A stretch of DNA of 22,859 nucleotides from a virus, in the IMG/VR virus record IMGVR_UViG_3300005096_000445, positions 1 through 22,859 of that record, one strand, 5' to 3'. A program made the position numbers and the translations under genes. Numbering within the stretch: position 1 is the first letter of the stretch; each line of letters begins with the position of its first letter. Under the pieces are notes generated by a model. That model was not told the origin of the DNA. It did no database searches and saw nothing but the letters and a program-made list of their open reading frames with translations. Shown here in pieces: positions 6,063-12,823 of the stretch.

Positions 6063-6362
6063 ATGCACACACTCACCCCACTAACACCACTGGGCGGGAT
6101 AAACCTCACGCGCCCCTCACGCATCATGGAACAGCTTGCTGAGGTTGAAGAGACGCTACAGAACCTTGTGCATCATCATCTAGAAGTGAACGGTATCGAC
6201 CTGCGAGAGCCGGTTCCCATCATCATTATTGACCGACCACATGAACCTATCAGCCTGTTCCAAAATGGCTACACCCTGGTCAGACCGCAGACCAGCGCGC
6301 CATTGTATGGCCAGGCCAAAATCGGTGGCTGCTACATCCGCTGGGAAGAGGAGCTGCTATGA
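6063..6362 (+). CDS. Hypothetical early protein
   Basis: 99 residues, starting three bases after the previous stop. An N-terminal helix (SRIMEQLAEVEETLQNLVHH) is followed by a beta-rich stretch (PVPIIIIDRPHEP) and a C-terminal segment (AKIGGCYIRWEEELL). There is no signal peptide or membrane span. It overlaps the next gene by four bases (ATGA). I recognise no family; the conserved-looking GGCYIRW ending suggests a real folded protein. Confidence 0.6.
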   Translation: MHTLTPLTPLGGINLTRPSRIMEQLAEVEETLQNLVHHHLEVNGIDLREPVPIIIIDRPHEPISLFQNGYTLVRPQTSAPLYGQAKIGGCYIRWEEELL

Positions 6363-11020: not shown

Positions 11021-11641
11021 ATGAACGCAGAGATAATCCCATTCCCCCAAGATGCTGTCATAGTTAAAGGTCGTCACACCATCACCACCAGCCTAATGGT
11101 GGCTGAGGTGTTCGGCAAGCGGCACGATAATGTTTTACGAGCCATACGCAAACTGGAGTGCTCAGATGAGTTTCGACTCCTCACTTTTGAGGAGCGAGAT
11201 TGCATCGACAATCGCGGGAAAAGCCAACCCATGTTTGAAATGACCCGCGATGGTTGGATTATGCTGGTAATGGGATTCACTGGCTCCAGAGCTGCTCGGT
11301 TTAAAGAGACCTACATCAGCGTTTTCAACGCCATGGAGCGGGAATTAAGCTTTCAGGATACCCGCCGCATCGGGCAGCGGCAGCGATGCCTTGAGAAGCG
11401 CAATAACAAGCTCAAACGAGCCATACTCAGTGCCAATACTCGCCTGGCCAAGGTCTACCGCTATCTGGTGCTGGGGCTGAACTACACCGAAATCGCCAAG
11501 CAGCTTGATTGCAGCCGCAGCACTGTACGCAGTGAGGTCAGGCAGTTGGCCGAGTGCGGTATGCTGGAGTTTGCCAACCAGCGTAAGACAGGGCAGACCA
11601 TAGGTAAGCACTACCCCGAAAGCAAGGCATTGGAGGCCTGA
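11021..11641 (+). CDS. Rha-type phage regulatory protein with C-terminal HTH
   Basis: 206 residues with AGGAAAAATC before the ATG. Residues about 18-105 are a Rha domain (TTSLMVAEVFGKRHDNVLRA, MFEMTRDGWIMLVMGFTG, ARFKETYISVFNAME), named from the P22 protein whose expression interferes with growth in hosts lacking IHF. The C-terminal part (about 135-190: YRYLVLGLNYTEIAKQLDCS, then RSTVRSEVRQL) is an HTH closely related to that of the BRO-N protein downstream. It is probably a DNA-binding regulator or anti-repressor. The two genes appear to share a C-terminal module under different N-terminal domains. Confidence 0.85.
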   Translation: MNAEIIPFPQDAVIVKGRHTITTSLMVAEVFGKRHDNVLRAIRKLECSDEFRLLTFEERDCIDNRGKSQPMFEMTRDGWIMLVMGFTGSRAARFKETYISVFNAMERELSFQDTRRIGQRQRCLEKRNNKLKRAILSANTRLAKVYRYLVLGLNYTEIAKQLDCSRSTVRSEVRQLAECGMLEFANQRKTGQTIGKHYPESKALEA

Positions 11642-11661
11642 TTTGACAAAGACGCAACAGC
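11631..11661 (+). repeat. 31-base direct repeat, copy 2 (with TTGACA)
   Basis: Second copy of the 10961-10991 repeat (27/31 identical), again at the end of an HTH gene and carrying TTGACA (11643-11648). Here a good -10 follows, making a functional-looking promoter for the c4-like RNA. Confidence 0.75.
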
Positions 11662-11672
11662 GGGACTATGCT
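11643..11672 (+). promoter_or_regulatory. Sigma-70 promoter for c4-like RNA and BRO-N gene
   Basis: TTGACA (11643-11648), an 18-base spacer and TATGCT (11667-11672). Transcription would start near 11679, within the gap between the Rha and BRO-N genes. It needs no phage activator by appearance, so the small RNA could be made in the lysogen. Confidence 0.6.
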
Positions 11673-11678
11673 TTCCCC

Positions 11679-11755
11679 GTCACGGCAAAATCCGTGGCCG
11701 GGATTGGCATCCTGAAAGTACGAGCGCACCGGCGCTAACTCGAAGCGTCTTTTTT
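11679..11755 (+). ncRNA. c4-type antisense RNA (candidate)
   Basis: From the predicted start to the end of the T-run is about 77 nt, the size of P1/P7 c4 RNA. It folds into CACGG/CCGTG (11681-11696), GGAT/ATCC (11701-11712) and a terminal stem. Three segments, GTGGC (11694-11698), TTGGCAT (11704-11710) and GTACGAG (11718-11724), are complementary, in antiparallel order, to GCCAC (11841-11845), ATGCCAA (11821-11827) and CTCGTAC (11808-11814) in the downstream leader. In P1, P7 and P4-type systems a c4 RNA pairs this way with the anti-repressor leader and shuts it off. The frame through the RNA reads TAKSVAGIGILKV, which I recall from Ash/Icd-like predicted proteins that overlap such RNAs. Exact ends are estimated. 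Confidence 0.65.
11732..11755 (+). terminator. Intrinsic terminator of the c4-like RNA
   Basis: GCGCT (11732-11736) pairs with AGCGT (11744-11748, one G-U) around a 7-base loop, followed by C and six T (11750-11755). An alternative upstream stem AGCGC/GCGCT (11723-11736) would compete with it. Read-through would give the BRO-N mRNA. Confidence 0.6.
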
Positions 11756-11768
11756 GTGCCCGCAGTTT

Positions 11769-11885
11769 ATGGCGGGTGTTTTGGGGGCGTTTTCGAACGC
11801 GCTGGATCTCGTACCCAGTAATGCCAACTCTGAAACACCTGCCACCCTCTTGCTTGGCATCAATGGTGGCAGATTCTCAACTTAA
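11769..11885 (+). CDS. Short leader ORF, Icd/Ash-like position
   Basis: 38 codons from ATG 11769, ending TAA 11883-11885, five bases before the GAGG ribosome site of the BRO-N gene. It encodes a peptide beginning MAGVLGAFSNALDLVPSNAN and ending INGGRFST. No clear Shine-Dalgarno sequence precedes the ATG; TTG 11754 is in the same frame. The position equals that of icd in the P1 c4-icd-ant operon, where translation of the leader ORF is needed for anti-repressor expression. A ribosome on this ORF would open the stem that hides the BRO-N ribosome site. The peptide itself need not have a function. Confidence 0.45.
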   Translation: MAGVLGAFSNALDLVPSNANSETPATLLLGINGGRFST

Positions 11886-11895
11886 GTACGAGGTC
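11805..11895 (+). promoter_or_regulatory. Stem masking the BRO-N ribosome-binding site
   Basis: GATCTCGTAC (11805-11814) can pair over 10 bp (one U-G) with GTACGAGGTC (11886-11895), which contains the GAGG ribosome site of the BRO-N gene. Inside lie two interleaved, hence mutually exclusive or pseudoknotted, stems: ATGCCAA (11821-11827) with TTGGCAT (11854-11860), and CTGCCACC (11839-11846) with GGTGGCAG (11865-11872). Confidence 0.6.
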
Positions 11896-11901
11896 ACTAC
11901 C

Positions 11902-12486
11902 ATGTCTAACATTCAAACCCATCTAGCCGACTTCAACGGCTACCCTATCGAGATTATTGATCACAACGGCCAGCAATGGCTTACCGCCGAACAGATCGGC
12001 AAAGCCCTTGGTTTAAAGCACCCGCGCCAAGGAATTGGTAAAATATTTAACCGTCATCGCAATGAAATCACCAGCGCAGGTGTAACCGAAGTCAATCTGG
12101 GTACGGTTCAAGGTGATCGAAAAATGACTGCTTTTACCCCCCGTGCCGCCCGCACCATCGCCTTCTTCTGTCAGACAGAAACCGCCCAACGGTTCCGTGA
12201 GTGGGTACTGGATGTGCTAGAACAAAGCATAGAAAACCCCAGCCGACTTCGCGAAGAGCTACTCAACGCCCGCCCCCTCTGGCGCAATATCGCCCGTTTC
12301 CGTGAGATGGGTCTCAACCTACAAGAGATCAGCAAGCTACTAGATTACAGTGATGCCACTATCCGCAGTAACCTTCGCCGCATGGAGCAGTGCGGCATCA
12401 TTGAGCCGCCCAAGAATCTGGCACAGATGCAGCGGTGCGCCAAGCACCTGCCCAATATCTCAGCGGGTAAGGGGAAACAGATATGA
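11902..12486 (+). CDS. BRO-N domain protein with C-terminal HTH, putative anti-repressor
   Basis: 194 residues from ATG 11902, preceded by GAGG at 11890-11893; the frame is open upstream to 11776, but that part overlaps the RNA leader. Residues about 10-110 are a BRO-N domain (NGYPIEIIDHNGQQWLTAEQ, IGKALGLKHPRQGIGKIFNR, FTPRAARTIAFFCQTETAQR, FREWVLDVLE), the N-terminal DNA-binding unit of many phage anti-repressors. The C-terminal part (about 125-175: NIARFREMGLNLQEISKLLD, then YSDATIRSNLRRMEQCGIIE) is an HTH related to that of the Rha-type protein. The c4-like leader supports an anti-repressor role acting against the 73-597 repressor, by analogy with P1 Ant. It ends in an ATGA overlap. Confidence 0.85.
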   Translation: MSNIQTHLADFNGYPIEIIDHNGQQWLTAEQIGKALGLKHPRQGIGKIFNRHRNEITSAGVTEVNLGTVQGDRKMTAFTPRAARTIAFFCQTETAQRFREWVLDVLEQSIENPSRLREELLNARPLWRNIARFREMGLNLQEISKLLDYSDATIRSNLRRMEQCGIIEPPKNLAQMQRCAKHLPNISAGKGKQI

Positions 12487-12694: not shown

Positions 12695-12823
12695 CCTCGT
12701 TCCCACGCGCCTACAGCGCCTACTTTTGGCTCCTGCGTGGGAATGCATATCAGAGGTTGATTGAAGCCCGCTATACAGCAGCGAGCCTCGTATGCATTCC
12801 CACGCAGGAGCGTGGGAACGAGG
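12695..12823. repeat. MITE-like palindromic element
   Basis: 129 bp with perfect terminal inverted repeats CCTCGTTCCCACGC (12695-12708 against 12810-12823) and inner arms TCCTGCGTGGGAATGCATA (12731-12749 against 12791-12809). The left arm carries an extra 22 bases (12709-12730) which, with the two bases before them, include a tandem GCGCCTAC. There is no ORF inside. It lies between two converging genes and as RNA would be a strong bidirectional hairpin. A shorter related copy is at 16988-17022. Elements of this type are dispersed in gammaproteobacterial genomes as I recall, so it was probably gained from the host. Confidence 0.75.

Follow-up and report, generated by a model that had tools for sequence, protein, structure and literature searches.

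A probable C4-type antisense RNA switch upstream of a BRO-N antirepressor gene in a Mu-like phage

Results

Organization of the locus

The stretch of DNA analyzed here, called the window below, was the metagenomic IMG/VR record IMGVR_UViG_3300005096_000445 at positions 1 to 22,859, with a length of 22,859 nt (22.9 kb). The window carried the genes of a Mu-like phage, including those of a Mu transposase, a MuB-like ATPase, a Mu portal, Mu F proteins and a late activator, as well as a Ner-type regulator with an HTH_35 domain at 753-1064. The scan of the whole window with the Rfam models gave three strong matches side by side, namely c4-a1b1, isrK and C4, which were located between the genes of a Rha-type regulator and a BRO-N protein. 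The features of this region are listed below, with the boxes a1, b1, a2, b2, a′ and b′ named according to P1 usage.

11021-11641, plus strand: gene of the Rha-type regulator (PF09669, 3.4e-30), directly 5′ of the promoter; context, outside the switch
11643-11672, plus strand: sigma-70-like promoter TTGACA-18-TATGCT, 10/12 consensus matches, predicted start near 11679
11679-11755, plus strand: IsrK-like short RNA of 77 nt (isrK, RF01394), which holds the a1b1 targets and ends in an intrinsic terminator
11704-11710, plus strand: a1 target box TTGGCAT, pairing with C4 a′ (11821-11827)
11718-11724, plus strand: b1 target box GTACGAG, 14 nt after a1, pairing with the C4 b′ loop (11808-11814)
11731-11755, plus strand: intrinsic terminator GGCGCT-AACTCGA-AGCGTC-TTTTTT, a hairpin followed by six T
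11765-11849, plus strand: C4 antisense RNA (RF01695, 72.6 bits with a cut-off of 45, E 1e-12, full model 1-87)
11769-11885, plus strand: 38-codon ATG ORF overlapping C4, at the position of orf45 of Gifsy-1; probably not a gene here
11854-11860, plus strand: a2 target box TTGGCAT, a second copy of a1, 3′ of C4
11886-11892, plus strand: b2 target box GTACGAG, overlapping the Shine-Dalgarno sequence GAGG (11890-11893), 9 nt before the BRO-N ATG at 11902
11902-12486, plus strand: BRO-N antirepressor gene, ATG to stop, 194 aa (PF02498, 1.9e-8; phrog_5060, anti-repressor Ant, 1.2e-22)

The promoter, the hairpin with its six T (ending at 11755) and the BRO-N gene had already been named in a sequence-only reading of this DNA, and all of them were present. 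The Rha and BRO-N genes were both open, and the BRO-N protein consisted of the BRO-N domain and a C-terminal winged helix. The N-terminal domains encoded by these two adjacent genes were unrelated, and the C-terminal winged helix/HTH was common to both proteins (33% identity over 75 aa), which suggests a domain exchange or duplication. A long nested inverted repeat at 12695-12823, with arms of 21 and 18 nt that were 100% and 94% complementary, directly followed the small ORF 3′ of the antirepressor gene and resembles a small mobile repeat of the palindromic kind. The small early protein encoded at 6063-6362 showed a weak match to the Kil septation inhibitor (phrog_6381, 1.9e-5).

At the DNA level, the window had no match among plasmids, and phage DNA matched it only over a promoter-leader stretch of 112 nt in Pseudomonas aeruginosa phages, in which C4 was also present at the matching locus. 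The scan with the Mu transposase gave only two relatives. C4 matches were found in 2 of the 42 records collected via the Mu portal. One of them was a distant phage (L199), in which a BRO-N gene followed C4; the C4 match was at 10.6 kb of the record and the portal gene at 16.3 kb. The other was a 58 kb record in which C4 was far from the portal. C4 is thus uncommon in Mu-like phages, but not unique to this one.

Promoter and terminated leader RNA

About one promoter site of this quality was expected by chance in the whole stretch. The start predicted from the promoter spacing coincided with the 5′ end of the isrK match, which covered positions 1-77 of the model with 53.4 bits, only just above the cut-off of 50. 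The c4-a1b1 model (RF03163) matched at 11666-11718 with 55.4 bits, above its cut-off, and the b1 box was located 6 nt before the terminator stem. IsrK is characterized by Hfq binding, activation in trans, and a small ORF that is translationally coupled to the antirepressor. Among the traits of IsrK that can be recognized as sequence features, the window displayed a putative sigma-70 promoter of its own, a predicted intrinsic terminator, and an antirepressor gene in the presumed read-through mRNA.

The promoter-proximal RNA of about 77 nt had been taken for the c4 RNA itself, followed by a leader, in an order ascribed to P1. The three adjacent Rfam matches reversed this assignment, such that the proposed small RNA was the a1b1 region or IsrK and the proposed leader ORF was C4. 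The identification of the promoter-proximal RNA as C4 was rejected by the position of the C4 covariance match, which lies downstream of it, and by the order in P1, which is promoter, a1b1, C4, a2b2, icd and ant. The length of 77 nt common to the leader of the window and the mature C4 of P1 is a coincidence.

C4 RNA and its two target sets

The search with the Rfam C4 model, which had been proposed together with the sequence-only reading, gave a score well above the cut-off, at the position listed above. In the predicted fold of the C4 RNA of the window (-36.2 kcal/mol), a long stem enclosed two hairpins, the b′ segment CUCGUAC was exposed in a hairpin loop, and the a′ segment AUGCCAA was unpaired. 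This fold agreed with the consensus fold of 47 loci.

Three segments of the leader were complementary to C4 in antiparallel order, GTGGC (11694-11698) to GCCAC (11841-11845), TTGGCAT (11704-11710) to ATGCCAA (11821-11827), and GTACGAG (11718-11724) to CTCGTAC (11808-11814), and all three pairs were exact, as had been noticed before. Such an arrangement had been called hard to get by chance. When the 79-nt leader was shuffled with its dinucleotide composition kept, 0/20,000 shuffles had both 7-nt boxes in order, and the result was likewise 0/20,000 for shuffles of the stretch downstream of C4. The only other places in the record with the box pair were the second target (11854-11892) and the strand antisense to C4 itself, the latter trivially. 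The second target set, a2b2 on the Shine-Dalgarno sequence of the BRO-N gene, had been overlooked in the sequence-only reading, and its copy and that of a1b1 both matched C4 exactly. MFE co-folding of C4 with the targets was uninformative, with hardly any gain in energy (-1.0 and +0.6 kcal/mol), since C4 and the targets were each strongly folded and the MFE method cannot represent loop-loop contacts.

The order of promoter, a1b1, C4, a2b2 and next gene was the same as that of c4 in P1, and so were the fold and the a1-b1 spacing of 14 nt. In both P1 and the window, the distance from the end of C4 to a2 was about 4-5 nt, that from the end of b2 to the start codon was 9-10 nt, and b2 was located on the ribosome-binding site. 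P1 differed in that icd lies between a2b2 and ant, whereas a2b2 of the window was positioned directly on the antirepressor start, and in that it has Ant1/2 where the window has BRO-N. The isrK-like leader of P1 had a weaker terminator hairpin and reached 35 bits, below the isrK cut-off. The mature C4 of P1, about 77 nt in length, represses in trans, and a2b2 on the Shine-Dalgarno sequence is the repressive contact in that phage. C4 of P1/P7 is processed by RNase P and blocks translation around the ribosome-binding site (PMC5320573, PMC12197685). The CI RNA of the satellite phage P4 (seqA/CI/seqC; see PMC4825925) is an antisense RNA released by processing. Like C4 of the window, it has one target copy on its 5′ side and one on its 3′ side, but it controls replication genes by transcription termination.

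The 38-codon leader ORF of the sequence-only reading was present, but the segment was that of the C4 RNA and the frame was not conserved. No Shine-Dalgarno sequence for this ORF was seen in the window, and the ORF ended 16 nt before the antirepressor ATG with no overlap. Frame-specific conservation of the leader ORF was absent across the C4 loci. Frames starting from the conserved AUGG of C4 ran through C4 in 25/41 cases, compared with 27/47 and 30/47 for the two remaining frames, and stop codons ended several AUGG frames within 3-18 codons. The 38-codon ORF was accordingly not supported as a conserved gene. With AUGG frames open through C4 no more frequently than the others, the sequences indicate that selection at C4 loci keeps the RNA and not the leader frame.

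Covariation of C4 with its flanking targets

We compared 47 C4 loci, 38 of which came from searches with the C4 model (window included) and the remaining 9 from searches by pattern or similarity. Among these loci, the loop and unpaired segments of C4 varied widely. The complementarity of C4 to its own flanks and to foreign flanks was scored as runs of at least 6 nt, with 5000 permutations. Among the 47 loci, some of which are related copies, the loop segment (b′) matched the upstream flank in 91% of own pairs and 16.5% of unlike foreign pairs, and the downstream flank in 91% and 7.5%, respectively. For the unpaired segment (a′), the values were 98% and 17% upstream, a test biased by those loci that had been collected with the a1b1 pattern, and 96% and 3.6% downstream. 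In each of the four tests, the observed mean was reached by 0/5000 permutations. The boxes thus covaried across the C4 loci, as expected from the sequence-only reading, with matches to 91-98% of own and 4-17% of foreign flanks.

The downstream match of the loop was present at 43 loci, and an ORF started within 22 nt of it in 38 of them, with a median gap of 9 nt, equal to the gap in the window. The next proteins at 40 C4 loci included BRO-N (5), AntA (4), Rha (3), P22_AR_N (1), KilA-N (1) and SymE (1), and many of the others were short and without known family.

C4 also occurred in multiple copies. The Serratia marcescens genome of locus L011 (G001) contained 16 C4 matches, 14 of them above the cut-off in the first search; the loops of these copies differed, most copies had an isrK-like leader, and several were located 5′ of uncharacterised proteins. 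Four tandem copies of C4, repeated every ~350 nt and at least three of them with an isrK-like leader, were found in G266:C9:1700-3092.

Association of C4 with isrK

In 274 gammaproteobacterial genomes, all isrK matches above the cut-off (19/19) had C4 9-63 nt downstream, and an isrK-like leader was present upstream in 40/44 C4 matches. In the Salmonella prophage Gifsy-1 (L151), the isrK match (34240-34316) was next to a C4 match of 69 bits (34131-34214) that fell on the orf45 region. The C4 covariance match over the orf45 region of this published IsrK locus suggests that the stable species STnc1160 of Gifsy-1 is a C4 RNA. The arrangement of IsrK-orf45-AnrP was the same as that of the window, with a promoter, a short terminated RNA, a read-through mRNA with the C4 match, and an antirepressor downstream, although the small ORF of the window does not overlap the antirepressor as it does in Gifsy-1.

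According to the available text of the Gifsy-1 report (PMC4825925), IsrK in trans activated AnrP ~100-fold, the processed STnc1160 was located in the read-through region, and co-expression of the orf45/STnc1160 segment led to more, not less, growth arrest. In that text, the authors explained the switch by refolding in cis together with translation of orf45 and cited CI/seqA of P4, and a C4 of the P1 type was not invoked there.

Association of C4 with sRNA-Xcc1

The nearest IMG/VR relatives of the BRO-N protein of the window, which were 63-64% identical over the matched segment, carried sRNA-Xcc1 (RF02221) instead of C4 in the same place, and two of these records also carried the Mu portal. The window itself gave no covariance match to sRNA-Xcc1 up to E 10, and sRNA-Xcc1 belongs to a sequence family different from its C4. 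The predicted consensus fold of sRNA-Xcc1 had the three-way topology of C4, with a loop complementary to the Shine-Dalgarno sequence of the next gene, together with an unpaired tail that was complementary to the flanks on either side. In L002-L005 (for example, L003:1874-1959) and in L091-L120, the RNA had a terminated leader on one side and the start of a gene on the other. Runs of at least 6 nt with the two own flanks were found at 28 loci in 68% and 57% for the loop and in 82% and 57% for the tail, compared with 5-13% for foreign flanks.

PMC2996969 and PMC12444791 describe sRNA-Xcc1 as an sRNA that acts in trans and is linked to virulence or carried by integrons. Its sequence features point to an antisense RNA of the C4 type and not to an sRNA acting generally in trans. 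The gene behind the RNA encoded SymE at five sRNA-Xcc1 loci and at one C4 locus. The SymE-toxin genes of one genome (G082) were located behind C4 (L053:1501-1832) and behind sRNA-Xcc1 (L093, L111), so the two RNAs appear to serve the same kind of gene. In Mu-like phages, related antirepressors were thus found with one of two RNA versions in front of them, C4 or sRNA-Xcc1.

Discussion

Our results showed that a Mu-like phage has a complete C4-type antisense operon beside its Rha/BRO-N pair, as the sequence-only reading had claimed, with matches to C4, c4-a1b1 and isrK all above the Rfam cut-offs. It is highly probable that this locus is a C4-type antisense switch controlling the BRO-N antirepressor of a Mu-like transposable phage. 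The direct observations behind this reading were the elements and their folds, the double complementarity, the location of a target on the Shine-Dalgarno sequence, and the covariation across loci.

In the proposed mechanism, the promoter at 11643 would produce the leader, and the first 77 nt, corresponding to the IsrK-like RNA, would usually end at the intrinsic terminator. Read-through transcripts would carry C4 and then the antirepressor gene. The C4 RNA, presumably freed by processing as in P1/P7, would pair with a2b2 via its b′ loop and unpaired a′ segment, thereby covering the Shine-Dalgarno sequence of the antirepressor and blocking its translation in cis and in trans. With translation blocked, the lysogenic state would be kept and immunity would be sequence-specific. 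The terminated leader may serve as a decoy which binds C4 and relieves the repression when it is abundant, as can be inferred from the identical copy of the boxes in the leader and from the relief of Gifsy-1 AnrP by IsrK in trans. By analogy with P1/P7 and Gifsy-1, the same processing, translational block and activation in trans would operate in this phage. The BRO-N protein would be an antirepressor by its family and would presumably antagonize a repressor. The sequence-only reading had proposed that the switch adds another layer of immunity to the c/Ner circuit, which may be the case; a Ner-type regulator is encoded in the window.

The locus could instead work as a switch in cis in the manner described for Gifsy-1, in which the leader is silent through the pairing of a1b1 with C4, free C4 is not the effector, and the IsrK-like RNA in trans opens the ribosome-binding site of a small ORF translationally coupled to the antirepressor. 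The layout of the window is the same as that of isrK-orf45-anrP, for which the available text of PMC4825925 gives experimental support, and a 38-codon ORF is present. Furthermore, a1b1 was predicted to pair with C4 in the full cis fold of the window leader, which resembles the silent structure A of the Gifsy-1 authors (PMC4825925, available text). The window data do not separate the decoy role from their cis-refolding model, and the increased growth arrest that they observed on co-expression of the orf45/STnc1160 segment also speaks against a decoy. However, the leader frame was not conserved among the C4 loci, and the ORF of the window had no visible Shine-Dalgarno sequence and stopped short of the antirepressor ATG. 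A switch in cis needs no a2b2, yet a2b2 covaried on the Shine-Dalgarno sequence of the next gene in 91-96% of the loci. Overall, we consider an explanation by cis refolding, with free C4 not acting as the effector, to be very unlikely.

Transcription attenuation, in which C4 bound to a1b1 would free the terminator stem and stop transcription before the antirepressor, as in the case of the CI RNA of P4, appears rather unlikely. The short distance between the b1 box and the terminator stem fits with it, and the predicted probability of the stem in the window increased from 0.07 to 0.93 with a1 and b1 occupied, as calculated by equilibrium folding only, with similar predicted increases in L006 (0.13 to 0.87), L045 and L048. 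Nevertheless, a more than twofold increase was predicted in only 4/27 loci, and the terminator was predicted anyway at most loci (median 0.71 to 0.82). Attenuation, although strongly predicted for the window, was therefore rejected as a general mechanism and may be at most an extra in some phages. It is hardly credible that the locus is a degenerate remnant inherited together with the antirepressor cassette, its function lost. The window is a fragment known from sequence alone and C4 loci are often multi-copy within a genome, but all elements were intact, both target copies matched C4 exactly, and the BRO-N and Rha genes were open.

Beyond the C4 switch of this phage, C4, isrK and sRNA-Xcc1 may constitute one class of antisense/decoy switches, in which two specificity segments match the Shine-Dalgarno sequence of the gene that follows as well as a terminated leader functioning as the decoy, and in which sRNA-Xcc1 would be a regulator of immunity or toxin genes in cis. 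We regard the arguments for and against this unification as evenly balanced. The three families are separate in Rfam, where isrK and sRNA-Xcc1 have no clan label, and almost no literature linking them was found. For Burkholderia, a table footnote states that C4 and isrK are transcribed as a single unit (PMC4603805), and C4-like sRNAs together with further sRNAs antisense to them were described in Acinetobacter (PMC5320573).

The C4 kind of switch is already known. The window is an intact further case, with which the known range of C4 switches comes to include a Mu-like phage, and the membership of isrK, and probably that of sRNA-Xcc1, is worth following. The specificity segments of C4 provide a simple code for predicting which prophages have a common immunity of the C4 type. 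If the unification is true, the purpose of the long-known a1b1 sites would be explained and their function would be directly testable, and the IsrK data of Gifsy-1 would gain an alternative reading. In that case, sRNA-Xcc1 would be recast from a virulence sRNA acting in trans to a cis regulator of immunity or toxins, and its target predictions for plant pathogens would need to be revisited.
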